Source: a virus
DNA length: 22,420 nucleotides
Reading direction: 5' to 3' (one strand)
IMG/VR virus record: IMGVR_UViG_3300022540_000165
Span: 1-22,420 of that record
Part shown: positions 1,591 to 22,420 of the stretch, in pieces
How the letters are laid out: every line of letters starts with the position of its first letter
Position numbering within the stretch: position 1 is the first letter of the stretch
Program-made: the position numbers and the translations under genes
The notes under the pieces: model-generated
Seen by the model: only the letters and a program-made list of their open reading frames with translations
Told to the model about the DNA's origin: nothing
The model's database searches: none

Positions 1591-4500
1591 TTATGTTTTT
1601 GTAAATAAATTTAATATAAAGTGTTCTACTTGAGCATATGTTTCAGATGATGGATCTGTTATTTCTATTTTAACTTTAAAATATCTTGCATTAACAATAG
1701 CTGACAATATTTCAGCATTTTTCATTTCTGACCAACCATCACCAGATAGTTTTTTATAAAATATAGTTATATCAACACGTGGTGCTTCTTCAACTTCAAA
1801 TATTTCACTCCAACTTTTTGTTGTAATACCAATGCTATTCCAAGTATTCGGAGAAGGTATTGCACCATTCCAAGTAGTTCCTCCGTCAGTTACAACAACA
1901 TCAGCTTCTAAATACATATAATATTCAGCGGCAGTAACACCAGTATCAAATTCCCTTGAATAATAATAACCATATAAAACATCAGATGTATGAGAACACA
2001 TTAAATAATCATCTGATGCATATGTTGTATGTTCTGTATTATCAAATACTCTACCTGTTGGCGCACTTATATAATCATCTGTAAAAGAAGTACTTAATGA
2101 CCAACCAGTAGGATCAATTAATGTAGCATTTGCATATTGTGGATCTGTTCCATATAGTCCATTTGTTCCTTTTGTATTACACCAAAATCTATGTATTCCT
2201 GGTTTAACACCGGGTAATGATTCTTGCGGGCTTCTTTTAGCTGATAAAAATACGGAACCATTCCAAGGAGCTGTCTCCATACCAACTCTAAATTCATATA
2301 CTTCAATATCAGGATCATCTAATTTATCTGAAAATAAGGTTAAAGAATTATTACTTGGTATAGCAGATAAATATGAAAGACTTTGAGGTGCATCTGAATT
2401 ACCAACAACTAAATGAGATAGTTTTGGTGCACTATCAAAACACTCTTTAACATCAAAAATACTAACAGAAATTAAAACAATATAATATTTTTGGCCTTGC
2501 TCAACATGATCTATATTAAAATCATTTGTAGTATTAAACTGGTGTTCATAATCTGCTTCATCTGGTACTGTACCTGTTGATGTTGTTATAGCTTGCCACA
2601 CTTCACAATGTTTGAACCAAGTTGCTTCTTCTGGAACTGTAAACGTTATATGTAATCTACTTTCAGTTCTTAATCTATAATAAAAAGTTTCTTCTGTTAT
2701 TTGTGGATTTTGTATCTGTATAACCACATTTGGATTTGGTAAATTACAAGTATAAGTTCCCTCAATACTTGCATCATAATCATCATCATATAATTCCAAT
2801 GATTCATATTGTAATGATAAATTAATTAAACCATTTCCAGCATATGAAGTTGATATAACTCTCATTGCTTGGTCAGATATTGCAAGAGCTGTACTATTAA
2901 ATGTTATTAAATCATGGGGTGCTAATTCAAGACAATCATCTCGAAATGTTCCAGATATAGTCCTATTTAATCTTGCTCTTTCTAATTGGTATGTTGCTAT
3001 ATTACATACTGTTTCTCTATCTGTATAACCCATTAAAGAAATACTTTTTACAACACCTGATTCTTCACCTATAAGTATAGTATCTTCTGTATATGATTTA
3101 TCTTTATCTATAAATTTAACTTTTAAACCTTTTGGTTTATTAAACCTGTTCGGTTGAGTCAATCTTATTTCAGCTTTTCCAGATTCATCTTGTACTATAT
3201 GTTTATCTTCTATGGTCATTACACTTGATTCTTCATTTAAATCAGCAATTAATAAATAATATTTTCCATCAAACCAAGATATATTACATCTGAAATGTGT
3301 CATTATATCTTGTGCCACTATCCAAGTATTTTTATTACCAGATGTTATATAATTAAATGACCATCCTTTACTATCAAAATAATTAGCAGCGACAGTCCAA
3401 GAAGTTATATCAATTTGATCTGCTGTGCAACCTTTAAGTCCATACCTATCATTAATGAAAAAATCATACAAACATAATATACCATTATCAGACCATGCTG
3501 TTGTATCATCTCTAAAATCTAATACTTTCTTACCTTTTAATTCTAGTAATCTTGTTGGTTTACCTGCTACATATAAATCTTTATCGTGTTGAAAATACCA
3601 TCTAATATAACAAGTGTGTCTCATATTATCAGTATAATCACTGTTAACAGCATTTATAGTTGTGTCATATGTCTGAGTTGATGAACCTGAATAAAATTGA
3701 TAACTAACTTTACTTCCAAAATAAGAAGGTAAATGATCATCAATAAATATTTGATCAATACTATCTTTTTGATTAATACCTTCACATTCACCTTCACTTA
3801 ATGTTTGAATGATGTATAAGTCTCTGTGATAATCACCTCTGGTTTCCATAAATACATCATTACCACCAACTTTTTGTAAACCATATACCACTTTCAGAGG
3901 TTCTTTAGTTGATCGTGTATTTATTTGACGACCAATATCCAAATCGTCTGGAGTTTCTGGTTGATTAAAGTATGCCCAAATAGCAGTAATTAAAGATATA
4001 ATTAAAGAAACAATTGCGGCTATTGCACCTACAAAAGCCCAATCAATAACACATTCTGCTACTTCACCATCATATAAATAACTATCTTCTTCGATAAGTT
4101 CTAATTTATCTGTTTCATCATTAAGTTTATATATAGCTTTAGTAGTAATCTTTCTTGGTTTTTCTCTAACTCTATAAACTTCAAATATATTTAAACCATT
4201 TAAACTTATTACTTTAATTCCATTCTTTATTGCTATAGGTTTATCACCTTTTTTCAATGCAACTTCTACTTTTTCTTTTCTTGTTATTAATACTTTATTC
4301 CCACCAGCAAAAACACATGGAGTTTTAATACCATTCCCACTATCAAGAATTATAATATCACCTTTCTTCATTTGATGTGGAGGAATTATGTCATAATAAT
4401 TACTGAAGTGTCTTTCTAATTCCTTGAATACTTCTTTTGGATTATCTTTAAATAATTTAACTACATTCTTCCAACTAATATCACCTGTTATCTGGTCTTC

Positions 4501-4644
4501 GAATGTATAAGGCATATCATATTCATTCTTACAGAAGTCTAAACATAAAGATAAACAATTATATCCATCTTCTTTAGATATACCTTCTGGATTGTAATCT
4601 AATCCTGTATATTTGTTTGTAGTTTTATAATCCCATTTTTTCAT
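1591..4644 (-). CDS. Fused NlpC/P60-like domain, membrane segment and J-like tail hub
   Basis: This 1017-residue protein combines parts that are separate genes in lambda (K, I, J) or gene transfer agents (gp14, gp15). Residues 1-160 resemble NlpC/P60 cell-wall peptidases, with a Cys at 30 in GYNCLSLCLDF and a GDIIIL strand at 95-100. The segment where the catalytic His-Val-Gly should sit reads KTPCVFAGGNKVL, so the histidine is missing. Residues about 201-226 form a hydrophobic membrane-like helix. From about 228 onward the sequence is a J-like hub (INTRSTKEPLKVVYG, then LSEGECEGI). It continues through the hub domains to about 620 and then beta-sandwich domains, probably fibronectin-like, to the end. 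The protein should sit at the tail tip and contact the host surface. Its start follows the hub gene by three bases with a weak ribosome binding site, suggesting coupling. Confidence 0.88.
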   Translation of the reverse strand: MKKWDYKTTNKYTGLDYNPEGISKEDGYNCLSLCLDFCKNEYDMPYTFEDQITGDISWKNVVKLFKDNPKEVFKELERHFSNYYDIIPPHQMKKGDIIILDSGNGIKTPCVFAGGNKVLITRKEKVEVALKKGDKPIAIKNGIKVISLNGLNIFEVYRVREKPRKITTKAIYKLNDETDKLELIEEDSYLYDGEVAECVIDWAFVGAIAAIVSLIISLITAIWAYFNQPETPDDLDIGRQINTRSTKEPLKVVYGLQKVGGNDVFMETRGDYHRDLYIIQTLSEGECEGINQKDSIDQIFIDDHLPSYFGSKVSYQFYSGSSTQTYDTTINAVNSDYTDNMRHTCYIRWYFQHDKDLYVAGKPTRLLELKGKKVLDFRDDTTAWSDNGILCLYDFFINDRYGLKGCTADQIDITSWTVAANYFDSKGWSFNYITSGNKNTWIVAQDIMTHFRCNISWFDGKYYLLIADLNEESSVMTIEDKHIVQDESGKAEIRLTQPNRFNKPKGLKVKFIDKDKSYTEDTILIGEESGVVKSISLMGYTDRETVCNIATYQLERARLNRTISGTFRDDCLELAPHDLITFNSTALAISDQAMRVISTSYAGNGLINLSLQYESLELYDDDYDASIEGTYTCNLPNPNVVIQIQNPQITEETFYYRLRTESRLHITFTVPEEATWFKHCEVWQAITTSTGTVPDEADYEHQFNTTNDFNIDHVEQGQKYYIVLISVSIFDVKECFDSAPKLSHLVVGNSDAPQSLSYLSAIPSNNSLTLFSDKLDDPDIEVYEFRVGMETAPWNGSVFLSAKRSPQESLPGVKPGIHRFWCNTKGTNGLYGTDPQYANATLIDPTGWSLSTSFTDDYISAPTGRVFDNTEHTTYASDDYLMCSHTSDVLYGYYYSREFDTGVTAAEYYMYLEADVVVTDGGTTWNGAIPSPNTWNSIGITTKSWSEIFEVEEAPRVDITIFYKKLSGDGWSEMKNAEILSAIVNARYFKVKIEITDPSSETYAQVEHFILNLFTKT

Positions 4645-4647
4645 ATA

Positions 4648-5343
4648 TTAATGTCTCGCTATATATTCTGCTTCTGTTTGATTTGGACCCCATTGAAACT
4701 TTTTGTTTTCTATACTTGGTAACCATCTAAATCCACCAAAATTAGCAGTATTACTAAGTTCTACACATCTTGTATGACTTCTATCACAGTGTGTTTCAGG
4801 TCCACTATATGCACATTCAACCCCAACAGCACCAGGAGTTCCATTGAATACTTTCCATCTACATGAAGATGAATGTTTACTATATGATTCATGCCCCCAT
4901 CTTGTAAAAATACTACCTATAACCAATCTTACTTCTGTTTCATCCAACTCAAATGAATCAACTTCACCTGTAAACATCAAAACAGTTCCTAATACTTCTG
5001 ATGTAGTTCCAGATGTAGTTATCAAACCCATATAAACTGATGCCGTTTTTTCTTCAACTGTACCAGGCACAAATATGGATGTAAGAACTTGATCTAAATT
5101 ATCGATTTTTAATGTACAGTCATCCATCACATTTGATAAAGTATAATTTATACTCTCAAATTCAAAACCTCTTGGTTGATATAAACCAGAGGCTGTTGTA
5201 CCACAGTTTGTTAAATCTATAGGAACATCAAGTGTTGTATATTTATAATCACTACTTCCATCTGTAAAATCCAGAGCAAAAAACGGAAACATTTGTTCAG
5301 CAGCTAACTCATCTAATATATCTTGACTTAATCCTCTTGCCAT
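4648..5343 (-). CDS. Tail tip hub protein, lambda gpL / DUF2163-like, likely FeS cluster
   Basis: This 231-residue protein has its ATG preceded by AGGAG. The first 150 residues are beta-rich and match the DUF2163/gpL style (FFALDFTDGS, then VLMFTGEVDSFELDE). The C-terminal region contains four cysteines at 161, 177, 186 and 193, followed by NTANFGGFRWLP. In lambda gpL and in the gene transfer agent hub protein, four cysteines followed by a 'N..NFGGF' motif coordinate a [4Fe-4S] cluster, and all four ligands are present here. It lies between the DUF2460-type distal tail gene and the fused J-like hub, the same order as gene transfer agent gp12-gp13-gp14-gp15. Its role is to close the distal end of the tail tube and seat the J-like hub. 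Confidence 0.85.
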   Translation of the reverse strand: MARGLSQDILDELAAEQMFPFFALDFTDGSSDYKYTTLDVPIDLTNCGTTASGLYQPRGFEFESINYTLSNVMDDCTLKIDNLDQVLTSIFVPGTVEEKTASVYMGLITTSGTTSEVLGTVLMFTGEVDSFELDETEVRLVIGSIFTRWGHESYSKHSSSCRWKVFNGTPGAVGVECAYSGPETHCDRSHTRCVELSNTANFGGFRWLPSIENKKFQWGPNQTEAEYIARH

Positions 5344-5353
5344 TTATCTACTC

Positions 5354-5938
5354 CTATGAGTTCAAGAGCCCTTGCAACTCTACTCCGAACGTTCTTAATC
5401 TATTATTAAATGTATCAAAAGACATACTATCTTCTTTAAATCTACATCTTATTTTTAATTTTCCTGAGAAATCTATTATAATTCTATAACCAGATGTTGG
5501 GGCAGAATTAAAAGTAATTTCATCACAACCATCAGTTCCACCTAAAGCAGAATAAGTATAATCAGATCCTTCTGTTTGTGCTATACTATTAACATACACT
5601 GTTCTTGCACTTGAATATCTACATGGTAGATTATATAAAACTGTTGAACCATCACCAGTTCCTATGTATTCACCCTCAAATGTTTCTACTTCGTATTTAA
5701 AAAATGTAAAAGCTTCATACGCACCAGATCTATCAATATAAAATTGAAATATAGTTCTTGCATCAGTTAATGAAAGATATTCATATTGAAGTGTTATTGT
5801 TCTTTTAGGAAACAACCATTTACGCTTTCTACGTTCTTCCCCTAAATCATCATAATTACTGAACAGTGTTTTAAATAAAATTCCATCTGATACAGTAACT
5901 CCGTAATTTATATCTTGATATGATGGGAAAAGTGCCAT
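5354..5938 (-). CDS. Distal tail protein, DUF2460-like
   Basis: This 194-residue protein starts MALFPSYQDINYGVTVSDG and carries the region WLFPKRTITLQYEYLSLTDA and FYIDRSGAYEAFTFF, the typical opening of DUF2460 proteins (gene transfer agent gp12, distal tail). The middle holds a beta-hairpin region 'GTGDGSTVLYNLP...VYVNSIAQTEGSDYTYS', like the repeated fold found after this domain in many phages. Its ATG overlaps the stop of the tape measure gene (TAATG), so translation is probably coupled. By family, it forms the hexameric ring that links the tail tube to the tip hub. The gene order tape measure, distal tail, FeS hub, J-like hub supports this. Confidence 0.85.
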   Translation of the reverse strand: MALFPSYQDINYGVTVSDGILFKTLFSNYDDLGEERRKRKWLFPKRTITLQYEYLSLTDARTIFQFYIDRSGAYEAFTFFKYEVETFEGEYIGTGDGSTVLYNLPCRYSSARTVYVNSIAQTEGSDYTYSALGGTDGCDEITFNSAPTSGYRIIIDFSGKLKIRCRFKEDSMSFDTFNNRLRTFGVELQGLLNS

Positions 5939-8364
5939 TATTGATTTACACTCCTTATAATATTGTTTAAAGCTAAATTACCTCTTTGCATTTGTTCTAT
6001 TATTGGACCTGCTATTGCTTGTGGATTTTTTCTAGTGAACTCAAAAAATGATTCGGAATCCATTGCATCTATTCTTATACTAACATTCATTGGTTGTTGC
6101 CCGCCGGTTGATTTAACTCCTAGTTCACCACCAGGCCCTCTTGTTAAAGGCATAATTGCTTCTGGTCCTGCCTCGCCCATAAGACCCATATTGAAAGATG
6201 TTGGTTTATCTATTATTTGATTAGTGAAGACACCGCCTTTAGCATAAGCAAATTCTTGTTTTGATATATTTGCTATTTGAACTGCAGCAGTTGCACCAAT
6301 TATACCTGCCATAGCTATACCAGGCCAACCAGGATATTCATTCATCGCTTTAACAGCTGCCGCGGCTCCAGCCATTGTTGCTTGTGCCATATTTAAATTC
6401 TTTTGTCTGTTAAAACTACTTCTATCTTGTTTAGCGCCAGCCTCACTCATTTGAGCATTCATTGCGCTAAATTGACTAAACAAACTACCCATACTACTAA
6501 ACATATCAGACATTGTTTGTAATTTTTTCTTTTGATTTTCTATTGCATCAGATGTTGTTTTATCATCAATTTCTTTTAACGCTGCTGCTTTAACTTTCGC
6601 AGCTTCTACTTCTTTAAAACCTAACTCAATCATATAATCATATTGAGCTTGAATTCTTTCTCTTTCTAAATCATCAGCTGATTTATCCATTTCATACAGC
6701 ATGGTTCTAAAAGTCTTTTTATCTTCCATTTGTCGGTCATAAAAAGCTTTCATAGTTTCTTGTACTTTGTCAGCCGATTCTTGAGCTTTAAGTATTTTAT
6801 CTGATTCTTTCTTAATATAATCCTGGAAATCTAGGTCTCTTAGTTCCATGTTCATTTTGGCGATTTCTTTCTCATAATCCATCGCAGCTTTAGCTGCCGC
6901 CGTTTTAGCTGCCGCAGCCGCTTTAGCTTCAGCCGCCGCTTTAGCAGCAGCTTCTTTTCTGGATTTATTAAATTTAGCTAAAGCCTTTTGTTGTGCGTCT
7001 GAAATACCTGGACCAGTTAATCTACCTTCCTCGCCTTTTATTGATGCTATCTCTTTTAATTCCTTTATCTGTTTTTTTAAAGCCTCAACTCTTTTTTCTG
7101 CAGACATTATATGTCCAGCACCATATTTAATCCAATTCCAGAAACTATGTCCTTTCTTTGCTATGGTTTCCCATCTTTCTAATTCAGAATTTAATCTTGA
7201 TAATTCTTCTTTAAATTTTCTAGTACCTGTTTCTGCTTTTACTAAACCAGAAACAAAATCAATTACTAAAATAGCGGCTACTCCCGCCATTATTGGACCA
7301 GAAAGTAACCAAACAGCATTTAAACCTTTACTTGCTCTCGCTAAATTATTTGTGACATTTAAATATTGACTTAAGAAACCAGTGCCTTTAAATATAGCTG
7401 TGGAAAAAATACCATAAACTAATATTGCTTTAGCTATACCTGCTATCCATAATCTTAATTTAGAATCAGATTCAAATAATTCTTTTGTAATTTTAGGTAA
7501 GTATTTAGCAATGCCTGCTAAACCGTCCGCGAACTTTTCTAAATTAGCAATAAATGCTGGATCTTTGAAGGTTTTATTTAATTCCTCTAATGTTTCAGCA
7601 AATGATTCTAATGATCTTCCTGCTAATGTAGCCATTAAACCTTCTATATTAGACCAGAACTGTTTCACTTGATTGGCATAACTACCCATAGTTCTTGCCC
7701 AATCACCAATAGCATCAGCAGAACCTCTAACCATTAATGAATAAGCTGCTTGAGCTTTTGTATTGGCATCTAATAAATCACCCTCTTGAGCCAGTCCTAA
7801 TCTATATGCTTCTGCTTTAACAACAGTTTCATTTAAGATAACACCATACTTCTTCATTGTTTCAAAATTACCTACTAAAGCAGACTGCATATCCATCATT
7901 ACTTTTTCAGTACCAAGATTATTAAAAGAGCCTAAATCAACAGATAATTTAACAACTTCATTAGACATTCTTGCTGCAGCATCAGAAGCCATACCCATAG
8001 GTTTAAGTAAATCTTGTACACTAGATAGATATTGTTTAGCAGCGCGCTCGGATAAACCATAAGAATCAACTAGTGTATCAGAAAACTCATTAGCCATATT
8101 TATCTGATCTCTAAATACAACACTAAACTTACCCATAACTTCTTGTAAATTAGAAGCAGCATCAATAGATTTCTTACCAAAAGCAATAGCTGCAGCAGCA
8201 CCAAAAGCTACTAAAGCGACTGTAGCTAACTTCATATGTTTAGTCATAGCTTTGCTGGACTTAATGCTTTGCTTCTCCATACCCTTAATAGATTTAGAGA
8301 CTTTTTTAACAGTAGCTGTGCCTTTATCGTCTATTTTAAGTGTTGCTTTGATCTGTTTTGGCAT
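5938..8364 (-). CDS. Tape measure protein
   Basis: This 808-residue protein has an AAGGA site seven bases before its ATG. Residues 1-45 are basic and helical. A hydrophobic Ala-rich helix at about 46-62 is followed by the region SIDAASNLQEVMGKFSVVF, typical of tape measure N-terminal domains. Further hydrophobic helices occur at about 305-325 and 350-375. A long Ala/Lys/Glu coiled coil at about 465-500 is followed by more helical repeats, and a final segment contains GGVFTNQIIDKPTSFNMG and MGEAGPEAIMPLTRG, the usual closing motif of this family. It follows the chaperone pair and precedes the distal tail gene, as expected. The length would correspond to a tail of roughly 120 nm by the usual 0.15 nm per residue, which fits a long flexible siphovirus tail. 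It is the scaffold around which tube subunits polymerise. Confidence 0.95.
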   Translation of the reverse strand: MPKQIKATLKIDDKGTATVKKVSKSIKGMEKQSIKSSKAMTKHMKLATVALVAFGAAAAIAFGKKSIDAASNLQEVMGKFSVVFRDQINMANEFSDTLVDSYGLSERAAKQYLSSVQDLLKPMGMASDAAARMSNEVVKLSVDLGSFNNLGTEKVMMDMQSALVGNFETMKKYGVILNETVVKAEAYRLGLAQEGDLLDANTKAQAAYSLMVRGSADAIGDWARTMGSYANQVKQFWSNIEGLMATLAGRSLESFAETLEELNKTFKDPAFIANLEKFADGLAGIAKYLPKITKELFESDSKLRLWIAGIAKAILVYGIFSTAIFKGTGFLSQYLNVTNNLARASKGLNAVWLLSGPIMAGVAAILVIDFVSGLVKAETGTRKFKEELSRLNSELERWETIAKKGHSFWNWIKYGAGHIMSAEKRVEALKKQIKELKEIASIKGEEGRLTGPGISDAQQKALAKFNKSRKEAAAKAAAEAKAAAAAKTAAAKAAMDYEKEIAKMNMELRDLDFQDYIKKESDKILKAQESADKVQETMKAFYDRQMEDKKTFRTMLYEMDKSADDLERERIQAQYDYMIELGFKEVEAAKVKAAALKEIDDKTTSDAIENQKKKLQTMSDMFSSMGSLFSQFSAMNAQMSEAGAKQDRSSFNRQKNLNMAQATMAGAAAAVKAMNEYPGWPGIAMAGIIGATAAVQIANISKQEFAYAKGGVFTNQIIDKPTSFNMGLMGEAGPEAIMPLTRGPGGELGVKSTGGQQPMNVSIRIDAMDSESFFEFTRKNPQAIAGPIIEQMQRGNLALNNIIRSVNQ

Positions 8365-10854: not shown

Positions 10855-11019
10855 TTACTTGGTTACTATATAATTTCCACACACAACAAAGTTAGGTTGT
10901 TTACACGGGCATGTATTTGGTTTATCATACCTATTGCTTATTACTTTCCTAGAGCAATGCAAACATTCCCATACCAGTTTCTCTTTATCATGTATCATCT
11001 TTAAATGTCTTCTATCCAT
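10855..11019 (-). CDS. 54-residue Cys-rich small protein, probable zinc ribbon
   Basis: A short minus-strand frame starts at ATG 11019 behind a strong GGGGGA site and ends at TAA 10857-10855, giving 54 residues. It reads MDRRHLKMIHDKEKLVWECL and continues with Cys at 19, 22, 37, 39 and 47. The paired cysteines (CLHC, then CPC) and a His at 21 suggest a small zinc-binding fold. It fills the otherwise empty gap between the major capsid gene and the connector adaptor, with the adaptor's ribosome binding site directly behind it. The family is not recognised. Its place suggests a head-related or DNA-binding accessory protein, but there is no direct evidence for function. Confidence 0.75.
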   Translation of the reverse strand: MDRRHLKMIHDKEKLVWECLHCSRKVISNRYDKPNTCPCKQPNFVVCGNYIVTK

Positions 11020-11075: not shown

Positions 11076-12230
11076 TTAAGCCTGTAGTTTAAACAATCCC
11101 ATAGCAGCCTCAAGACCAACATCACCATCAAGTCTGGTATGACAGATAAATTGAGTTTTACCCTCTGCCATATATTTATATGGATTAACTTGCATTTCAA
11201 TACCTTTACGAACACCAAGGTAATAATATTTCAAGTTTCCAAAAACACCAAAAGCATCTCCAGCAGAAGGTGCAGCAGGAAGTTTCTCTACTTGAACATA
11301 AGGATAACTATAAATAGTAGCAGGATTACCTGCAGTAGGTAATGTCCAAATCAACCTTTGATTATCATCTTTCTCAGTTCTAATATAGTGAGTAGCAGCC
11401 TTATTCATATAAAACTTCATACCAACAAGTTTATTATCACTAAATTTAGAAATAGCTTCACTAAAATGAACATAACTAATATCAGCAATACTACCAGATA
11501 TAGTCACTATATTAGTAGTAAGGTCAAAAAGATCACCAGTAAAACTGGAGCCAGTAAATACATATTCATCAATAGACTGACCAATAGCTTCAGCATTCAA
11601 GCTTGTAAGCCAACTTGAAATATCAAAGAATGAATCTTCCAGTAAATCGTTATAGCAAATAGAGAAATTACCTATTCGTTTCATGTCCAATTTAATCTGG
11701 TCGATTGTAGGTTCACTTTGAGTATTAGCAGTTCCAAATGTCTGAACATCAACAGAAGTGCCTGCTGTTTCAATAGGAATAGTTAAAGTATCTCTACTAA
11801 TATTAAAAATTCTACATTCCCTCATTGCTACTGATTCCAAACGAGCAAGAGCCATAAGGTCTAATTCATATTCATCAGGTACAAATTCAGAGTGAGTTGT
11901 TTCAGTCATATCTGCTTTCTGAATCATGTCAATTATGAATTTGGCATTTCTTTGTTTTCTTTCTTCATCAGCTACTTCAAAGTTCATAAACTGTCTACGA
12001 AGGTCGTAACCTTTATAGATGAAGTCTACTGTTTTATTCTCACCAGGAACTTCCAATTCAACCTTAACACCAGGTGCATTATTTCTTTTTTCCTCAACTG
12101 CTTTAAAAGCAGTATTTTCTTCAAGCAGTTTAGCATAATTTTCATCTTGCTCTGCTTGGTTTTTCTTTAAGGCATCTTCATCCATAAGTTCGCGAAGCAA
12201 GCCTTTTAATTCTTTTCGTTTATCTTCCAT
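11076..12230 (-). CDS. Major capsid protein, HK97 fold
   Basis: This 384-residue protein has an AGGA element nine bases before its ATG. The first 75 residues are helical and highly charged (MEDKRKELKGLLRELMDEDA and beyond), like the removable delta domain of HK97-type capsids. The rest contains the N-arm and fold of the family, including 'FVPDEYELDLMALARLESVA', 'NISRDTLTIPIETAGTSVD' and the closing 'QFICHTRLDGDVGLEAAMGL'. A prohead protease gene lies directly upstream, consistent with cleavage of the delta domain. The cut site is not visible. The 83-base leader between protease and capsid holds an imperfectly supported TATAAT and a small inverted repeat (12289-12301), so independent capsid transcription is possible but unproven. 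Confidence 0.93.
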   Translation of the reverse strand: MEDKRKELKGLLRELMDEDALKKNQAEQDENYAKLLEENTAFKAVEEKRNNAPGVKVELEVPGENKTVDFIYKGYDLRRQFMNFEVADEERKQRNAKFIIDMIQKADMTETTHSEFVPDEYELDLMALARLESVAMRECRIFNISRDTLTIPIETAGTSVDVQTFGTANTQSEPTIDQIKLDMKRIGNFSICYNDLLEDSFFDISSWLTSLNAEAIGQSIDEYVFTGSSFTGDLFDLTTNIVTISGSIADISYVHFSEAISKFSDNKLVGMKFYMNKAATHYIRTEKDDNQRLIWTLPTAGNPATIYSYPYVQVEKLPAAPSAGDAFGVFGNLKYYYLGVRKGIEMQVNPYKYMAEGKTQFICHTRLDGDVGLEAAMGLFKLQA

Positions 12231-12313: not shown

Positions 12314-13087
12314 CTATTTTATTTCATCTATCATTTCTTTATATACTTTGTTCTTTTCAAATTCTTCTGATTTATAATCATCATATAATTCATATATATA
12401 ATCATTACCTTTTAACTCTTCCATTTCAGCTTTAAGTTCAGTGATTAATTTTGTATAATCTGTTTCCTCTTCCTTGGTATGACCCTCATCTTCAATTATA
12501 ATCGATTCTGTATCCTCTGAGAGAGTTTCTGCTACTATTTCATCATATGTATCTAGTGTAGATTTATCTACTACTTTATCCTCTATAGCTTTCTCTATAT
12601 TACTACGGAATGATTTGGCTTCTATTGAAGTTGCGTTGTTTGCACCAATATTTACTGCACTGACTTCAAGCATTGTAGCATTATTAATGACAGCTGTTCT
12701 ATTACCTTTCTTATCCTCTTTATATTCTATTGTTTTATAGTCAGGTATGAATGATATAGAGACATTATTTATATAGCCGCCAGCAATAAGCTTATATATC
12801 TGATAACCAAATGGGTATTCTTCTTCACTGGTCATCTGTGCTTTACCTCTTATTGTTTTACCATCTTTCCAGATACGGATTATTTTTCCAATAGGTGGCG
12901 CTGTTTGTTGGTGAGACCATAGAAAGGATTTGGTTTTCTTTATCTTTGAGATATCCATACCATCTACTTTAACTATATCACCATCATAATCTCTTATTTC
13001 TTTTGTAGCTACAAATTCTACAATACGATCTTCCTTGTTAGCAGCTTTTACATCTATTATACTTAAATATTTAATTTTTTGTTCCAT
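12314..13087 (-). CDS. Prohead maturation protease S78 fused to acidic scaffold-like tail
   Basis: This 257-residue protein has AAGGAG before its ATG. Residues 1-160 match the HK97 prohead protease family. His59 lies in 'FLWSHQQTAPPIGKI', the nucleophile Ser110 is in 'YINNVSISFIPDY', and 'MLEVSAVNIGANNATSIEAK' follows, as usual for the third active-site strand. Residues about 165-257 are rich in Glu and Asp and predicted helical, and resemble a scaffolding extension rather than protease. It cuts the capsid delta domain and itself after prohead assembly, by family knowledge. It sits between the portal and capsid genes, the standard order. The acidic tail suggests that no separate scaffold gene is needed, which is consistent with none being seen. 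Confidence 0.9.
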   Translation of the reverse strand: MEQKIKYLSIIDVKAANKEDRIVEFVATKEIRDYDGDIVKVDGMDISKIKKTKSFLWSHQQTAPPIGKIIRIWKDGKTIRGKAQMTSEEEYPFGYQIYKLIAGGYINNVSISFIPDYKTIEYKEDKKGNRTAVINNATMLEVSAVNIGANNATSIEAKSFRSNIEKAIEDKVVDKSTLDTYDEIVAETLSEDTESIIIEDEGHTKEEETDYTKLITELKAEMEELKGNDYIYELYDDYKSEEFEKNKVYKEMIDEIK

Positions 13088-13096
13088 ATCATCTCC

Positions 13097-15091
13097 TTAT
13101 TCAATATATGGTGCTATTGCACAGCGACAATTACACACTTCTGATGCCGGGCCAGAATCTCCTGGAAATTTCATTCCATTAGAATATATATGATTCATTG
13201 GTACTGGTCCTACACTAAAATTATTAGCGTGTGTGTCTCTTGTGGATTCATCCATATTAGCTATCCATTCTTTCTTTTGTACACCTTCATTACCATATTC
13301 CTTAAATGCACTGGTATTCATCATACTGGCTGTTTCTGTTATTGCAATTAATTTAGACCTAACCTTAGCAAACACATATACACCTTTTATTCGTTTAGCT
13401 ATCTGGTCAAGTGATTCACCTGCATTAGCACCTTCAAATATTTCCATTTTAATCTGATTGTATACTGTAATATTAATACCTACTATCTTATTTAGTTTAG
13501 TTAATAGTATATCAGGATCTATCATGTCTTTCTTTATACTCTTAACACCTAATGTAGATCGTGCTAATTCTACAGCTGTTTCGCCTGCGCTGATATAAAG
13601 TGGTTTAGTAACTTTTCTTAACCTGTCATCTTCATTATTAGTGAAGAATTTACTCAGGTTGTTTGTTAGATTATGTATATGTTTACTATTACTAACTATC
13701 TTTAAAACTTCTTTCCTTTGTTCAAAGAAATACTTTTTAACTTTAGTTTGAAATTGTTTCTCATGTTTTAATTGTTGACGATTGAAGTTTCTTCTATATA
13801 GAGATTGTCTTGATTTAGTATTAGTTTTAGTTAGAATATCTACTATTTTATCTATCTTAGCTTCTTTTTTAGGTTCTATAGGTTCTATCTCTAAAGAATT
13901 CTCTTCCCGGCGAATTAAATTAAGCGGCAATAAATCATCACCATCATTAGTATCAGGCATATCTAAATTTAATCGTTCATTAATTTCATTCCTTGTATAA
14001 CCCATATGAAGCATCTTCTGCGCTGATTCTAATGTAATATTAAGGTCACCTTTCAAATCATCTATATCAGACAAGTCAAATTTACAGTGATAACCCGGGA
14101 AGTATGGATTAAATAGTTCAGAATTAAGTTTCTCTTGATATCGTATGAGTTGTGGTTTGATTGTTAAAGTCCAGAGTTGACGCATACCTTCTTTTGCATT
14201 AGCTCGATTAACATCATCAGATATACCCATGACAGTTTTATTAACACCGAGGGCAGTCATAATTCTATCCCTTATTGCGGCCCTTCCCTCGATGTATTCC
14301 ATTTCCCTTTGAGACATTCCTGTTTCAACATATTCCATACCACCTAGTAGACCAGCTATTTTATATGCATTATCAGACCCTTGGTGTGTTGCGTTCCATT
14401 GTCTTACCACCCTCTTTAATTGGTCTTCATTAACTGTTCCATCTTTAGGTGTCTTTAAGAAACCACCTATCTTAGCGAAGTTTTCAAAGAATACCTTTTG
14501 ATATTTAGCAGCATAGGTATCAGCGGCATATTCCATTAATACAGTTTGAATAGGTGATAGACCTCTTAGTCCTTTAGTGTTGGGAAACTTGAAGTGTATT
14601 ACTTGTTCTTTAGGCATTGGTATTTTATCATTGAATACCCATGATTCTATTTGACCAGTTTGTTTGTTCTTTTTGTGTTTCATGAACCTAGGATTAAGTG
14701 TGTGTATACTATATATTCTTTTGCTACCTTCTTGTAAGTTTAAATACCAGAATGCTTCACCATCATTGTAGAAATATATAAGTGTCTTCTCCCATAATTC
14801 AAACCTGCTTACATCTTCCGATGGTGTAATAAACATATTGTTGATTTCATGGTTCTCTGGTATTTCTTGTTCACCTCTGTACACTCTCAAAGGTACTTGT
14901 GCAAAATTAGTTGCTATAAGGCTTATTCCTCTATTAATAATATAGTTATCTCTAAAACTATCAGTTGTCGATATATCCCACTCTTCTAATTTGTTCCCCG
15001 AAACGGCATATAAAATATCCGTCCATCCTTTTTCCTTTATGGGAGTATCTTGTGGTACATATAGTGAACCTCTCTTCTCATAATTGCTCAT
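13097..15091 (-). CDS. Portal protein fused to MuF-like minor head domain
   Basis: This 664-residue protein has AAGGGA before its ATG. Residues 1 to about 395 are an HK97-type portal ('IINRGISLIATNFAQVPLRV', then 'TLNPRFM', 'VIHFKFPNTKGLRGLSP', 'LGVNKTVMG'). This part is followed by a basic linker at about 400-470. The C-terminal 100 residues match the Mu F / SPP1 gp7 minor head family: 'VRSKLIAITETASMMNTSA', 'KEWIANMDESTRDTHA' and the closing 'EVCNCRCAIAPYIE'. In most phages these are two adjacent genes, while fused forms are known in some. The portal forms the DNA entry dodecamer at one capsid vertex, and MuF-type proteins are injected or line that vertex. No frame break is visible at the junction. 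Confidence 0.9.
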   Translation of the reverse strand: MSNYEKRGSLYVPQDTPIKEKGWTDILYAVSGNKLEEWDISTTDSFRDNYIINRGISLIATNFAQVPLRVYRGEQEIPENHEINNMFITPSEDVSRFELWEKTLIYFYNDGEAFWYLNLQEGSKRIYSIHTLNPRFMKHKKNKQTGQIESWVFNDKIPMPKEQVIHFKFPNTKGLRGLSPIQTVLMEYAADTYAAKYQKVFFENFAKIGGFLKTPKDGTVNEDQLKRVVRQWNATHQGSDNAYKIAGLLGGMEYVETGMSQREMEYIEGRAAIRDRIMTALGVNKTVMGISDDVNRANAKEGMRQLWTLTIKPQLIRYQEKLNSELFNPYFPGYHCKFDLSDIDDLKGDLNITLESAQKMLHMGYTRNEINERLNLDMPDTNDGDDLLPLNLIRREENSLEIEPIEPKKEAKIDKIVDILTKTNTKSRQSLYRRNFNRQQLKHEKQFQTKVKKYFFEQRKEVLKIVSNSKHIHNLTNNLSKFFTNNEDDRLRKVTKPLYISAGETAVELARSTLGVKSIKKDMIDPDILLTKLNKIVGINITVYNQIKMEIFEGANAGESLDQIAKRIKGVYVFAKVRSKLIAITETASMMNTSAFKEYGNEGVQKKEWIANMDESTRDTHANNFSVGPVPMNHIYSNGMKFPGDSGPASEVCNCRCAIAPYIE

Positions 15092-15124: not shown

Positions 15125-16297
15125 TTATATTACCATTCCATATTGTATTTGTGGTTTACCATAATGTGTGTACATTGCATATCTAAAAGCATCCATTAGA
15201 TGGTCATTGAACTTTATTGGATCATCCCATACTCTACCATCACGATCTTTACGATAGGAATACGCCCTTATCTCTTTAATTAAATCTATACTATTATAGT
15301 ATATATATAATGTAGATCGTTTGCAGAAATCTAGTCCGTCTGTCACTGATTTATCAGCTGGTTTGATATTGAACCCTGCTCTGCTTATTTCTTCAATACG
15401 AGCTGGCTCTGCATTATCTGCATATATTATATCTTTCTTGTTCTTGATTAGATATTTTAGTTTAGCAATAAGATCATTGTTGGTTAAACCTGTTTGATAT
15501 AACATCTGTTCTAAGTAATACTCTTGATCAGATAATCCTATCTTTACAACTGCCGTTGCATTATTAAAACCAAAATCAATACCATATATTGTTTCTTCTA
15601 TTGTAGGTCTAACTTTTACTATAGTATAGTTATTATATATTACTTCATCTAGTGTTCCCCATTCACCTTCTCCGTAGATTTTCCAGTAAGTTGGATTAGT
15701 ATCTCTGATTGATTCTAAATATTTAATATATTGTTCGCCCAGGAAAGGATTATCTTTATATGTTGATAGTATTTCTTGAACATCCTCTTCTACATCTAGT
15801 AAATTTACTTTGAGCCACGAGAAGGCATCAGTAGGATTAAATGCCATGTATATCTGATTCATCAAATCATTTGGGGCTGACATCCTTAATTTTAATGTCA
15901 TATAATCATCATATGTGAAGTTGTTTGCTTCTTCCATTAATACATAATTCCATTCAGTTGATCTCATTTTGCTCGGGTCGTCAAATGCCGTAAATTGTAC
16001 TAATGTATTATTAGGTAGATAGGTTAGTACTTTATCAGTTTTATTATGTTCAAAATATCTGTAATAATCATATTGCTTCAGTAGATTGATAAAATCTTTA
16101 ATCAGTACCATCTTTAATGCTGGTGTAGTCTTCATTGTTAATAGTATCTTCTTATTTGGTTCGTTGGTTATCTTCTGAATGAATAGTTGATATAATGAAT
16201 GAGACTTTGAAGATCGAGCTCCACCACGATTAACTACGGTAGATTTGGTCGATTCGAAATTCTGTTTGAATATGTTAGTAACAGTTACTTTCTTCAT
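15125..16297 (-). CDS. terL: Terminase large subunit
   Basis: This 390-residue protein is the packaging motor ATPase and nuclease. The deviant Walker A is GGARSSKS (25-32) and Walker B is YVLMEEA (118-124) with the catalytic glutamate. The coupling motif MAFNP is at 151-155. The RNase H-like nuclease domain shows Asp241 in GIDFGFN, Asp294 in YADNAEP and Asp365/Asp369 in FNDHLMDAFRYA. The arrangement resembles PBSX-type large terminases. At 390 residues it is compact, but both domains are complete. Its ATG shares a base with the stop of a small membrane-protein gene (TAATG) and has no strong ribosome binding site of its own, so translation is probably coupled. Confidence 0.95.
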   Translation of the reverse strand: MKKVTVTNIFKQNFESTKSTVVNRGGARSSKSHSLYQLFIQKITNEPNKKILLTMKTTPALKMVLIKDFINLLKQYDYYRYFEHNKTDKVLTYLPNNTLVQFTAFDDPSKMRSTEWNYVLMEEANNFTYDDYMTLKLRMSAPNDLMNQIYMAFNPTDAFSWLKVNLLDVEEDVQEILSTYKDNPFLGEQYIKYLESIRDTNPTYWKIYGEGEWGTLDEVIYNNYTIVKVRPTIEETIYGIDFGFNNATAVVKIGLSDQEYYLEQMLYQTGLTNNDLIAKLKYLIKNKKDIIYADNAEPARIEEISRAGFNIKPADKSVTDGLDFCKRSTLYIYYNSIDLIKEIRAYSYRKDRDGRVWDDPIKFNDHLMDAFRYAMYTHYGKPQIQYGMVI

Positions 16298-16540: not shown

Positions 16541-16963
16541 TTATTCCCCCTTATCATGGTCATTCAGTACAAATGTAATTGGCTCTGGTGTAGCCACAGT
16601 TATTTCTGCCTTGGTTGGTGTATCCAGACCTTCAAACTTCGACCTTCGCTCTTCAATCCTTAGCATAGTGTTAATCGCTCCCAGGTCGCCTGTATCGATC
16701 TTTCCTTGTATAGCGTCTAAAGCCCTATCCAAACGCGTTAAAGCAAGAGTTCTGACTGTCTCAGCTTCTTCTAATGATAGTTCCTTAAGCTCTGCTATAC
16801 TATCCATTACATATCTATATGCTGTTGAATGGTCTACACCAAGTAGTTTACCTATTTCTCTATAGGTTTTACCTGCTTGTCTATATTTAAGAGCGTCTAC
16901 CATGTTCTCTCGGCGGCGGGGCTGGGCTCCTTTAGTCATGTTATGTGTGTGTTTAGCTTTCAT
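16541..16963 (-). CDS. terS: Terminase small subunit
   Basis: This 140-residue protein has a helix-turn-helix at about 22-60 (YREIGKLLGVDHSTAYRYV), then a helical oligomerisation region (VRTLALTRLDRALDAIQGKI, GAINTMLRIEERRSKFEGLD) and a C-terminal strand-forming tail. This domain order and the 'RIEERRSKFEGLD' phrase are typical of small terminase subunits. It binds the packaging site on phage DNA and hands it to the large subunit. It lies upstream of terL, separated by the small membrane gene. Short AATAGTATAG repeats flank it on both sides. Its own ribosome binding site is not obvious, because the leader upstream is AT-rich without a clear AGGAG. Confidence 0.88.
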   Translation of the reverse strand: MKAKHTHNMTKGAQPRRRENMVDALKYRQAGKTYREIGKLLGVDHSTAYRYVMDSIAELKELSLEEAETVRTLALTRLDRALDAIQGKIDTGDLGAINTMLRIEERRSKFEGLDTPTKAEITVATPEPITFVLNDHDKGE

Positions 16964-17014: not shown

Positions 17015-17104
17015 TTAGTGTAGTTTAATGTGTTTATTCTTTCGTGTATATTTTTTCTTATCTTTAAACCATATTGTAGCTGGTGGTGTTGGTAAACTAT
17101 ATTC
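17015..17104 (-). pseudogene. Start-less fragment of a small basic protein
   Basis: A minus-strand frame runs from a stop at 17107-17105 to TAA at 17017-17015 and has no usable start codon. It encodes 29 residues including SLPTPPATIWFKDKKKYTRK and ends NKHIKLH. The Pro-Pro stretch followed by 'FKDKKKYTRKNKH' resembles C-termini of small basic phage proteins I remember, and it looks more protein-like than the other frames here. It lies directly behind the HNH gene and overlaps its last bases. A plausible reading is the 3' remnant of a gene broken when the HNH gene inserted, but without a database comparison this is only an inference. Confidence 0.35.
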
Positions 17105-17654
17105 TTATTATTAATTCCTTAGGTATAATATAATCTTCATTATTATTCTTACACAAATTATGATGCGCGGGAATAACCTGTAAATTATCTGGATGATGAA
17201 GACCACCTTTACTGATTGGTTTTATGTGATCCACATGCCAGTCTTCTCCCATAAATTCTGATATCTTATAGTATAATAGTAACTTAGCATTCTCTTGTGG
17301 TGTTAGTGTAGGTGATTGATTTTTCTTTAATGCTCTGTATTTAGCATCATAAGAATTACACCTATCTCTGTTGTCCTGTTGCCAACTACTCATTAGTTCT
17401 TTATAATGTTTTTTATTATCCTGATAATACTGTTTTAAATATTGTTTATAATGTTTTGGATTATTTTTACGCCATTGTTTGTTTGAATGTTTATGTTGTT
17501 CTTTATTATTTTCATACCATAATTTAACTCTATTCTTATTACATTTCTTACACTGTGATGCTTTCCAGCCTTTCTTCTTATTTAACCAATTAAAGTCATC
17601 TTCACTTAATACTCTTCTACAATCACTACATATCTTAATTACTTTTGATTTCAT
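17097..17654 (-). CDS. HNH homing-type endonuclease (copy 1)
   Basis: This 185-residue protein has two N-terminal CX2C pairs (Cys 9/12 and 35/38), a long basic helical middle, and an HNH nuclease motif at about 139-170. In the HNH motif, Asp142-His143 lie in 'WHVDHIKPISKGG', Asn157 is in 'LHHPDNLQV', and a final His-Asn pair at 165-166. It is a free-standing homing-type endonuclease that would nick or cut DNA and help spread its own gene. Its start lies one base after the Lon-like gene stop, with an AAGGA site inside that gene's last codons. Its ends match two further HNH genes at 21529 and 22366, on the other strand, while the middle differs. It separates the Lon-like gene from terS. Confidence 0.92.
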   Translation of the reverse strand: MKSKVIKICSDCRRVLSEDDFNWLNKKKGWKASQCKKCNKNRVKLWYENNKEQHKHSNKQWRKNNPKHYKQYLKQYYQDNKKHYKELMSSWQQDNRDRCNSYDAKYRALKKNQSPTLTPQENAKLLLYYKISEFMGEDWHVDHIKPISKGGLHHPDNLQVIPAHHNLCKNNNEDYIIPKELIIRI

Positions 17655-17655
17655 A

Positions 17656-18054
17656 TTATTCCTTATCCATTATGAGTTTTTTACCATATTCTTCTGCTGT
17701 GGACTGTTTCTTTTTGATTCCCCCGACCGCAAGAATTTTACCTTCTGGTGAAACAGCTCCTGTGTAAACAACACTATCATCATCTGGTGAGTTATTGAGT
17801 GATCCAAGGAGACCTTTGTAGATAGCCAGGCCCAACGACGGTCCTGTCAGTGAATATCGACCACCTTGAATATCAATATCGATATCTGTATTTTTTGGAA
17901 CCTGGAGGCTGTGAAGGGCGTTCTTGACACTATTCAAGATATCTTCTGACACAGATCCTGTTATTTTTAAAATACCATTACCTTGTTTAGTGGTTGTTTT
18001 GATCTCTATCAATTCCCCTTTGTTGTTGTTTATGGCTACACCAAATGTTTTCAT
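17656..18054 (-). CDS. Stand-alone Lon-type proteolytic (S16) domain protein
   Basis: Translated from ATG 18054, the protein has 132 residues and is a Lon P domain without the ATPase or N-terminal parts. It starts FGVAINNNKGELIEIKT, the usual first strands of the domain. The nucleophile Ser73 is in LTGPSLGLAI, where Lon has GPSAG. Next comes VVYTGAVSPEGKILAVGGIK with Lys114 as the partner, 41 residues after the Ser (43 in E. coli Lon). It ends GKKLIMDKE and lacks the last helices of full-length P domains, exactly where the HNH gene begins. A TTG at 18099 in frame is less likely as start, because the domain match begins after the ATG. Without an ATPase it may cleave flexible substrates, need a host partner, or serve virion maturation. 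The substrate is unknown. Confidence 0.85.
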   Translation of the reverse strand: MKTFGVAINNNKGELIEIKTTTKQGNGILKITGSVSEDILNSVKNALHSLQVPKNTDIDIDIQGGRYSLTGPSLGLAIYKGLLGSLNNSPDDDSVVYTGAVSPEGKILAVGGIKKKQSTAEEYGKKLIMDKE

Positions 18055-18255
18055 AATATTTACCCGCGCGGGCTGCAAATTATTCTGACCAGGGACCAAA
18101 ACTTTCTGATGTTTTGTCAGGTATGGCCAAGAAAAATCTTGTATAAAAAAACACTCTCTATTAACATAGACGACGCTAGGTCATAGTAAACTGAATTTAT
18201 TGATAAAAATTTTTTAGTGAAAAATAATTGAAAATAAATGAAAAATAGTTTATGA

Positions 18256-18283
18256 ATGACATTCAGTGTAAAATAGATATAAT
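18256..18283 (+). promoter_or_regulatory. Sigma70-like promoter P1, rightward
   Basis: ATGACA (18256-18261) and a perfect TATAAT (18278-18283) are separated by 16 bases. Transcription would begin near 18290 and run through a long leader containing an inverted repeat before the first early gene at 18516. Confidence 0.5.
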
Positions 18284-18344
18284 ATAGTGTAGATGTATGG
18301 TACTGTAAGGCTTAGGTAGGAAATAAGTGTGTATGTTATGTTTA

Positions 18345-18396
18345 TTTAATTAACTAACCATAGTAAGGTAGAGAAGGTTAATTTATGTTAATTAAA
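18345..18396. repeat. Interrupted inverted repeat in the early leader
   Basis: TTTAATTAAC (18345-18354) and GTTAATTAAA (18387-18396) are perfect inverted copies, and inside them TAACC (18355-18359) pairs with GGTTA (18376-18380). The arms thus give 15 pairs with a six-base bulge and a 16-base loop. It lies between the two candidate promoters, so it could be an operator or a leader RNA hairpin. Confidence 0.45.
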
Positions 18397-18436
18397 CTAA
18401 GAAATAAAAAAAGTTTGAAAAAAGTTAAAATAAAAC

Positions 18437-18464
18437 TTGACATTTGGAAATTAATGCTTATATT
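18437..18464 (+). promoter_or_regulatory. Sigma70-like promoter P2, rightward
   Basis: A perfect TTGACA (18437-18442) and TATATT (18459-18464) are separated by 16 bases. The start would be near 18471, about 45 bases before the first early gene, which has a strong AAGGAGG site. This is the best promoter in the window and probably drives the rightward early block. Confidence 0.7.
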
Positions 18465-18472
18465 GTAGGTAA

Positions 18473-18488
18473 GTAAGAATTATCTTAC
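18473..18488. promoter_or_regulatory. Small dyad at the P2 start, candidate operator
   Basis: GTAAGA (18473-18478) and TCTTAC (18483-18488) are perfect inverted copies around a four-base ATTA. The dyad covers the predicted transcription start of P2. A repressor bound here would block the early promoter. As RNA it would be a weak hairpin. Confidence 0.4.
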
Positions 18489-18515
18489 AAATAAAATAGA
18501 ATTAAGGAGGTTATT

Positions 18516-19010
18516 ATGAAAGAGAAAAAGAAAAGAGGAAGGGGAAGACCGAAAGGATTCAAAATGAAAGAGTGTAGTAAGAAAGCAATAGCTTTATCAA
18601 AAACTGGTTATGTTATGTCTGAAGAAACTAAAAAGAAAATAAGTGATGGTGTTAGAAGAGCTCATGAGGTAGGTGCCCCTATTGAAGTGTTAATGGAAGC
18701 TGATTTAGAAAAGTGTGGTCAATTTAAGAATGGTGAGTATATTAGTATTGGTATACCTAATCCTGTTTTTGGTGAACCTTCTTACCAACAGAGACTTCAT
18801 GTAGCAATTATGGAGCAATTCTTAGGGAGGAAATTAAAGCGCCAGGAGGAAATTCACCATTGGGGTAATAAAGATGATAACAGGTTTGAAATGTTAGCTC
18901 TTTGTAAAACCAGACGAGAGCATATGATGTTGGATAAAATTAAAAATAGAACTTTAAAAGGAGAATTAAAAAAGATAGAAAATTTAAAGGGAGGAGGAGG
19001 AATAATATGA
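18516..19010 (+). CDS. AT-hook / NUMOD3 / HNH endonuclease
   Basis: This 164-residue protein has AAGGAGG five bases before its ATG. Residues 7-14 are a Lys/Arg-Gly-Arg-Pro AT-hook (RGRGRPKG), suited to binding AT-rich minor groove. Residues about 35-50 (SEETKKKISDGVRRAHE) match the NUMOD3 DNA-binding motif of homing endonucleases. The nuclease core is 'RLHVAIMEQFLGRKL' followed by EEIHHWGNKDDNRFEML and REH, with His114/His115, Asn122 and His136, a different HNH subtype from the other HNH genes here. It is the first gene of the rightward block and overlaps the next gene (ATGA). It is probably a mobile nuclease, but could have been recruited for phage DNA metabolism. Confidence 0.85.
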   Translation: MKEKKKRGRGRPKGFKMKECSKKAIALSKTGYVMSEETKKKISDGVRRAHEVGAPIEVLMEADLEKCGQFKNGEYISIGIPNPVFGEPSYQQRLHVAIMEQFLGRKLKRQEEIHHWGNKDDNRFEMLALCKTRREHMMLDKIKNRTLKGELKKIENLKGGGGII

Positions 19011-21528: not shown

Positions 21529-22083
21529 ATGAAATCAAGCGTAATCAAAATATGTAATAATTGCCATAGAGTTTTGAGTGAAGATGATTTTTATTGGTGT
21601 AAAGATAATAGGTCTCCTAATGGTGGTTATAAACATTCTACATGTAAAAGGTGTCATAATAATCAAGTTAAATTATGGCATGAAGATATAAATTATTATT
21701 CAAAGTGGCGGACAAATAATATAGAAAAAATTAGACTATATGATAAAGAATGGAATAAGAAACATCCCAATAGTAATAAGCGAAGATGTAAAAAATCATA
21801 TGAAAAAAATAAAGATAAACGATATATATATGATGCACATAAAAGAGCGAGAAAAAGAAATGCTGCACCAAACCTAACTGAATTAGAAAAGAAAAAAATT
21901 AACCTTTATTACAAGATAAGTCAATATATGGGACCTGATTGGGAAGTCGACCACATTATTCCTCTTAGTAAAGGTGGTCTTCATCATCCAGATAATTTAC
22001 AGGTTATTACTATGAGTGATAATAGAAAGAAATATAATAATGAAGATTATAAAATAGATGATTTGTTTCAGATTCAAATTTAA
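21529..22083 (+). CDS. HNH homing-type endonuclease (copy 2)
   Basis: This 184-residue protein has an AAAGGAGG site about ten bases before its ATG. The N-terminus matches the copy at 17097-17654 (MKSSVIKICNNCHRVLSEDD versus MKSKVIKICSDCRRVLSEDD), with CX2C pairs at Cys 9/12 and 39/42. The nuclease motif is WEVDHIIPLSKGGLHHPDNL with Asp141-His142 and Asn156, followed by Asn165 in 'SDNRKK'. The middle third differs from copy 1, so the DNA-recognition part has probably diverged while the ends stayed the same. Its first 30 bases are identical to copy 3. It lies directly after the origin-like array. Confidence 0.92.
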   Translation: MKSSVIKICNNCHRVLSEDDFYWCKDNRSPNGGYKHSTCKRCHNNQVKLWHEDINYYSKWRTNNIEKIRLYDKEWNKKHPNSNKRRCKKSYEKNKDKRYIYDAHKRARKRNAAPNLTELEKKKINLYYKISQYMGPDWEVDHIIPLSKGGLHHPDNLQVITMSDNRKKYNNEDYKIDDLFQIQI

Positions 22084-22365: not shown

Positions 22366-22420
22366 ATGAAATCAAGCGTAATCAAAATATGTAATTCGTG
22401 TCACAGAGTTTTGAGTGAGG
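22366..22420 (+). CDS. HNH homing-type endonuclease (copy 3), 5' end only
   Basis: The ATG at 22366 follows an AAGGAG site, and the frame runs off the right edge. The 18 visible residues, MKSSVIKICNSCHRVLSE, are almost the same as the start of copy 2, and the first 30 bases are identical. The first CX2C pair (Cys 9/12) is present. By this match it should encode another homing-type endonuclease, but the nuclease domain lies outside the window. Confidence 0.8.
   Translation, partial: MKSSVIKICNSCHRVLSE

Follow-up and report, generated by a model that had tools for sequence, protein, structure and literature searches.

The window analyzed here is the whole 22,420-nucleotide stretch of IMG/VR virus record IMGVR_UViG_3300022540_000165, from a tailed phage, in which the genes are arranged divergently. 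The leftward genes, on the minus strand, begin with an open reading frame (ORF; positions 17656 to 18054) for a 132-residue stand-alone S16 (Lon-type) proteolytic domain, designated LonP, which was recognized by Pfam, NCBIfam, PDB, and Foldseek matches. This ORF is followed by an HNH/endonuclease VII-like gene (17097 to 17654, minus strand; HNH, E = 3.1e-4 in Pfam; phrog_1035, 3.5e-22), a gene for a small terminase-like HTH protein (TerS; 16541 to 16963, minus strand; HTH_38, 4.4e-5; phrog_645, 3.5e-21), whose terminase role is inferred from its position, and a small ORF. The genes for the large terminase (TerL; 15125 to 16297, minus strand; Terminase_3, 5.2e-29), a portal fused to a Mu-F-like minor head domain (13097 to 15091, minus strand; Phage_portal, 4.9e-60; Phage_Mu_F, 1.4e-11), an S78 prohead protease (12314 to 13087, minus strand; Peptidase_S78, 4.5e-11), the major capsid protein (11076 to 12230, minus strand; Phage_capsid, 6.9e-29), a connector, and tail proteins come next. 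Between the capsid and connector genes, positions 10855 to 11019 encode a 54-residue protein with paired CxxC/CPC cysteines (zinc-ribbon-like). The rightward side consists of an HNH gene, small ORFs, and a gene for a winged-helix protein. The first of these rightward genes (18516 to 19010), opposite LonP, encodes a NUMOD3-HNH homing-type endonuclease of a different kind from the leftward HNH protein.

LonP heads the leftward packaging/head operon as its first transcribed gene. The original prediction had placed it at the head of the packaging/head block and had reported a separate S78 protease, and the gene order is as described on both counts; the HNH gene intervenes between LonP and TerS. 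Upstream of LonP lies a stretch of ca. 460 bp (18055 to 18515) that contains no convincing gene and from which transcription diverges on both sides, based on the sequence, a GC-skew switch, and a start-site check. The palindrome CCCGCGCGGG is located in this region ca. 10 bp ahead of the LonP ATG, and the region is a possible operator or cos region. The start-site check revealed no clear Shine-Dalgarno sequence for LonP or TerS, and a search for a structured leader RNA found nothing (z = -0.64).

The LonP ORF extends on the minus strand from an ATG at position 18054 to a TAA codon finishing at position 17656. It is a real ORF, otherwise intact, with normal codon use that fits the phage coding frame. 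Comparison with Pfam matched residues 4 to 126 to Lon_C (PF05362; 1.8e-13, 51 bits for a cut-off of 21.1), versus 0.0052, under the cut-off, for ChlI (RadA/ComM-like). NCBIfam models for lon scored ca. 1e-11 (lon, 2.4e-11), versus 3.6e-5 for RadA, and the best PDB sequence matches were Lon protease domains (8dvh, 8.5e-11; 1rr9, 1.8e-9). Identity to bacterial Lons was ca. 28 to 32%. By these sequence criteria, LonP is a Lon/S16 proteolytic domain, and a chance match is excluded. The profile search suggested with the original prediction thus favored Lon, and RadA/ComM (ChlI-type) identity, which had been named as a possible refutation, was rejected because the Lon profiles score far better and the catalytic dyad is present. 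A Pfam search of the 132-residue ORF revealed no AAA+ match, nor was any AAA+ protein matched among the tested neighboring proteins of the 22,420-base record, in agreement with the proposal that LonP has no ATPase.

An AlphaFold2 model of LonP built with 34 Lon domains as the alignment had a well-formed core (pLDDT, 88.3; pTM, 0.85) and matched the protease domains of E. coli and other LonA enzymes with a TM score of ca. 0.88 and a superposition of ca. 2 Å. All of the top 50 Foldseek matches were Lon proteins (TM scores of ca. 0.8 to 0.88; rmsd mostly of 2 to 3 Å), in agreement with the claimed Lon P domain. Among viral models, the best matches were giant-virus Lons of 675 to 1,028 residues, and the best tailed-phage match was weak (2.9e-3). 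The fold collapsed (pLDDT, 42) when the alignment contained only LonP and L224, a stand-alone S16 protein from another phage (see below). The LonP model leans on the alignment of cellular Lons and therefore supports the fold assignment rather than providing independent proof.

The dyad was read from the columns of the alignment of LonP with the 34 Lon domains, in which those of E. coli S679 and K722 are invariant (34/34). LonP residues 73 (codon 17836 to 17838, minus strand) and 116 (codon 17707 to 17709, minus strand) align with S679 and K722, respectively, with no gap between them, and the active-site pattern matched positions 17707 to 17844. Thus, Ser73 was correctly assigned in the original prediction, and the lysine was not: the catalytic residue is Lys116, the third lysine of GGIKKK, and the proposed Lys114 is the counterpart of the noncatalytic K720. 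In SepM-type domains, only the third of these lysine positions, the counterpart of Lys116, is kept. With this correction, the spacing predicted to be near normal is the exact Lon value, since the Ser73-Lys116 step of 43 is identical to that of Ser679-Lys722. LonA and LonB have exactly 42 residues between the serine and the lysine, and a proline preceding the catalytic serine is a mark of LonA (PMC9569914). In addition to the dyad, LonP keeps T98 as the counterpart of T704 and the framework of G677, P678, G705, G717, and G718, residues that are invariant in the alignment, as are G681 and G711.

Four residues present in all 34 Lon domains are replaced in LonP: H665 by D59, H667 by D61, D676 by T70, and E706 by A100. 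As a consequence, LonP reads SLTGPSLG and TGA rather than PKDGPSAG and TGE, the LonA signature. In the Lon of Yersinia pestis, the aspartate near the catalytic serine (D676) obstructs the dyad while the enzyme is inactive and is displaced upon activation (PMC8163871). SepM-type domains have G or S-G in place of D676 and T or A in place of the TGE glutamate, with one TGA as in LonP. The losses of D676 and E706 thus provide LonP with the local signature of motor-free S16 domains. Loss of E706 could equally weaken LonP, and it is not common to both phage proteins, since L224 retains TGE. In a phylogenetic tree, LonP fell outside the LonA, LonB, and SepM groups, on a long branch of ca. 5 changes per site. 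The preservation of the dyad despite this very long branch argues that catalysis has been under sustained selection. Only one sequence of the LonP gene itself was found.

The original prediction had named virion protein processing, control of a host protein, and service as an adaptor to host Lon as candidate roles. Phages are known to inhibit Lon, PinA of T4 being an example. LonP could have the same aim, by binding host Lon or its substrates either as a decoy or as a single protease-ring subunit, and its nature as a Lon P domain ca. 30% identical to bacterial Lons would suit this role. A decoy, however, needs neither an intact dyad nor the loss of D676, and mixed rings are doubtful because LonP is only ca. 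30% identical to any Lon found. We consider such antagonism of host Lon quite unlikely.

The distribution of LonP-like genes was investigated by several approaches. Scans for exact 8-mer peptides revealed no close relatives of LonP in viral contigs or genome contigs and no close relatives of TerL in viral contigs. The search for TerL relatives reached identities of up to 54%, and the nearest named genomes by TerL were mostly Elusimicrobia metagenome-assembled genomes (MAGs; 41 to 48%). In the stretches examined near TerL relatives, no Lon domain was detected apart from one full-length Lon located 6 kb from a TerL on an Elusimicrobia contig, which is probably the host's own. A Lon_C search of 49 complete records of viral contigs related by TerL was negative, contrary to the expectation that the same gene might be found beside terS in related phages. 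Since none of the examined phages with a similar TerL carries LonP, the protein is not part of a conserved head machinery. This bears on the possibility that LonP acts alongside S78 in the processing of a head or tail protein, which its leading place in the packaging/head operon would favor. An S78 protease is already present in its usual position before the capsid gene, and this, together with the lack of conservation of LonP with head genes, disfavors a role in head maturation. A virion-processing function is therefore unlikely.

Among nine phage tblastn matches to LonP, seven were in full-length lon genes and one was a contig-end fragment; the ninth (H7, a near-duplicate of H6) was classed by its lon annotation only. 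Of the 71 Lon-like viral loci, all were full-length or interrupted by the edge of a contig, except for L120, an in-contig Lon fragment. A full-length Lon is encoded near attL in Moraxella phage Mcat3 (L002, positions 4126 to 6588) and is annotated as a hypothetical protein. A pattern scan for TG followed by any residue but E returned no match (the syntax was checked on the loci with a form of the pattern lacking this exclusion). When the LonA framework was sought with any residue but Asp at the D676 site, L224 was the single match, and a scan based on the alignment of LonP and L224 returned nothing further. A search of 150 Elusimicrobiota genomes with LonP detected only full-length Lons, contig-edge frames, or other large frames, and a pattern scan of 341 Elusimicrobiota genomes detected one small S16 gene. 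In a Sphingobacteriales chromosome (L233), a frame of 353 residues, shorter than full Lon, contains a normal LonA domain (DGPSAG, TGE) and could represent part of a Lon or one with a frameshift. The stand-alone, dyad-bearing domain of the original prediction is correct and uncommon, and no paper describing such a phage mini-Lon was found in searches of an open-access library.

L224 originates from a phage record (IMGVR_UViG_3300045996_001573) encoding Sak4 and DNA polymerase A, along with terminase-, portal-, and capsid-like proteins recognized by eye. Its S16 protein has 180 residues and is stand-alone, without an ATPase. The gene sits exactly between the two halves of a split polA (8391 to 11327 of L224), in the linker before motif A; in the numbering of the intact Microcystis phage polymerase, the N half runs to residue 544, with the C half starting from residue 564. 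Start and stop codons overlap on both sides of the insert, which contains no nuclease gene. LonP and L224 share GPSLG, AVGGI..K, a dyad step of 43, the loss of D676 (V in L224) and of both histidines, the absence of an ATPase, and a phage origin. They differ in that L224 is longer, keeps the C-terminal element and TGE, and belongs to another phage and gene context, the two proteins being 24% identical. The tree pairs LonP with L224 (support, 86/86); given the great length of both branches, their kinship is suggestive only. The small S16 gene from the scan of 341 Elusimicrobiota genomes is an ATPase-free S16-like gene among ordinary chromosomal genes of an Elusimicrobia MAG (L230, 7397 to 8218, minus strand; ca. 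173 residues from MMDSLEG). The product displays VTGPSIG and a dyad step of 43, with a Pfam match weaker than that of LonP (Lon_C, 2.7e-6).

LonP differs from a complete S16 domain by its C-terminal end. The protein stops after the strand KKLIMDKE, and the C-terminal strand and helix (ca. 35 to 40 residues) are absent. The other S16 domains compared (LonA, LonB, SepM, L224, and L229), two stand-alone ones included, all extend ca. 35 to 40 residues past the last strand of LonP. The ATG of the HNH gene is located 1 nucleotide past the LonP stop codon (TAATATG). The last LonP codons, ATG GAT AAG GAA, also serve as the ribosome-binding region of the HNH gene and are similar to the leader of a third HNH copy (TATGATAAAGGAG). 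The HNH/endonuclease VII-like family has three copies in the record, at positions 17097 to 17654, 21529 to 22083, and 22366 to 22420, the third being cut by the end of the record. The first is 55% identical to its paralogue at 21529 to 22083; the presence of this paralogue and of the third copy indicates that the family is mobile. The HNH gene has a low GC content (0.28), and the LonP (0.39) and TerS (0.42) genes on either side of it have higher values. Together, the missing end, the abutting mobile HNH gene, and the GC pattern make truncation by a homing-type HNH cassette plausible, and this is the main rival explanation: a longer stand-alone S16 gene would have been cut at its 3′ end by insertion of the cassette, leaving LonP as an unstable or weakly active relic. 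Against this explanation, no Lon C-terminal remnant was detected past the end of the HNH gene, the ORF shows no other damage and has normal in-frame codon use, the dyad and glycine framework have been retained across a very long branch, and the predicted core is well formed. We regard a truncated remnant as a real but minority possibility. A split gene with a Lon tail surviving past the HNH gene was rejected, since no remnant is there, and a search bearing on an intron gave no Rfam match.

In our preferred reading, for which we see about an even chance, LonP is predicted to be an ATP-independent S16 serine peptidase for the limited proteolysis of a specific partner, based on its sequence and on analogy with known enzymes. 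Replacement of the locking aspartate (D676) by threonine would free the catalytic loop from the ATPase-driven switch, and Ser73 would attack the substrate with Lys116 as the general base, independently of ATP. We infer that loss of the lock residue would render LonP constitutively active. Since LonP is unable to unfold proteins, limited cuts in flexible segments are expected rather than bulk degradation. These cuts would affect one or a few partner proteins, of phage or host origin, at the onset of late expression. LonP would act in the manner of SepM on a peptide pheromone and of CalpL on CalpT, rather than replacing the S78 prohead protease. More tentatively, LonP and L224, possibly together with cellular relatives such as L229, may represent a phage mini-Lon family in which loss of the ATPase and of the autoinhibitory aspartate yielded constitutive, ATP-independent peptidases of narrow specificity spread between phages by insertion beside or inside core genes. 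The 132-residue LonP would be the smallest S16 candidate in this analysis, and it would provide a test of whether loss of the D676 lock suffices for ATP-independent activity. If the preferred reading is true, phage gene sets gain a new class of protease. The retention of both catalytic residues without a motor suggests that some viruses use their own energy-independent miniature Lon.

Lon is regarded as a machine driven by ATP, and the known S16 enzymes without an ATPase are mainly larger fusions, including SepM with a PDZ domain, CalpL with a SAVED domain, and LonC. Without ATP, the ATPase-free MtaLonC is able to cleave unfolded proteins but leaves folded ones uncut (PMC3391209). LonP would in principle be a similar ATP-independent S16 peptidase, but LonC has ca. 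720 residues, an AAA-like domain, and an aspartate before the serine, in contrast to the 132 residues and the proline of LonP. CalpL, which cuts CalpT (PMC11417357), and the related CRISPR-Lon and SAVED-Lon effectors resemble LonP as ATPase-free S16 proteins, with a specific cut for the CalpL type and weak PADLOC profile matches (SAVED-Lon, 6e-8; CRISPR-Lon, 1.3e-7). Since a virus carrying the SAVED half (AcrIII-2) has been reported (PMC12751052), LonP might conversely be a scavenged Lon half of CalpL. Lon_C nevertheless scores far higher (1.8e-13), and true CalpL domains have G[NDK]SW, no GG before the lysine, a shorter S-K step, and a fused sensor domain, whereas LonP is of the LonA type (GPS, GG, and 43), with the motif GPSLG and no fused SAVED/CARF sensor. 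This motif comparison led to rejection of a CalpL origin, which we deem extremely improbable. LonP resembles the proteolytic domain of LonA (E. coli Lon, residues ca. 585 to 784; PDB 1rr9, 3wu4, and 5e7s) in its fold, Pro-Ser motif, step of 43, T704 counterpart, and glycine framework; it differs by the absence of the AAA+ and N domains, of H665, H667, D676, and E706, and of the C-terminal strand and helix. SepM is an ATPase-free S16 enzyme that cuts a peptide pheromone. The match of LonP to the SepM/YlbL model NF041438 (0.015; 14.3 bits) was far below the cut-off (200), and no PDZ match was detected in LonP. The SepM/YlbL-type PDZ-S16 peptidases differ from LonP by their PDZ domain and N-terminal extension, their retention of the C-terminal S16 element, and their separate clade, but they have in common with LonP the absence of an ATPase and the replacement of both D676 and the TGE glutamate.
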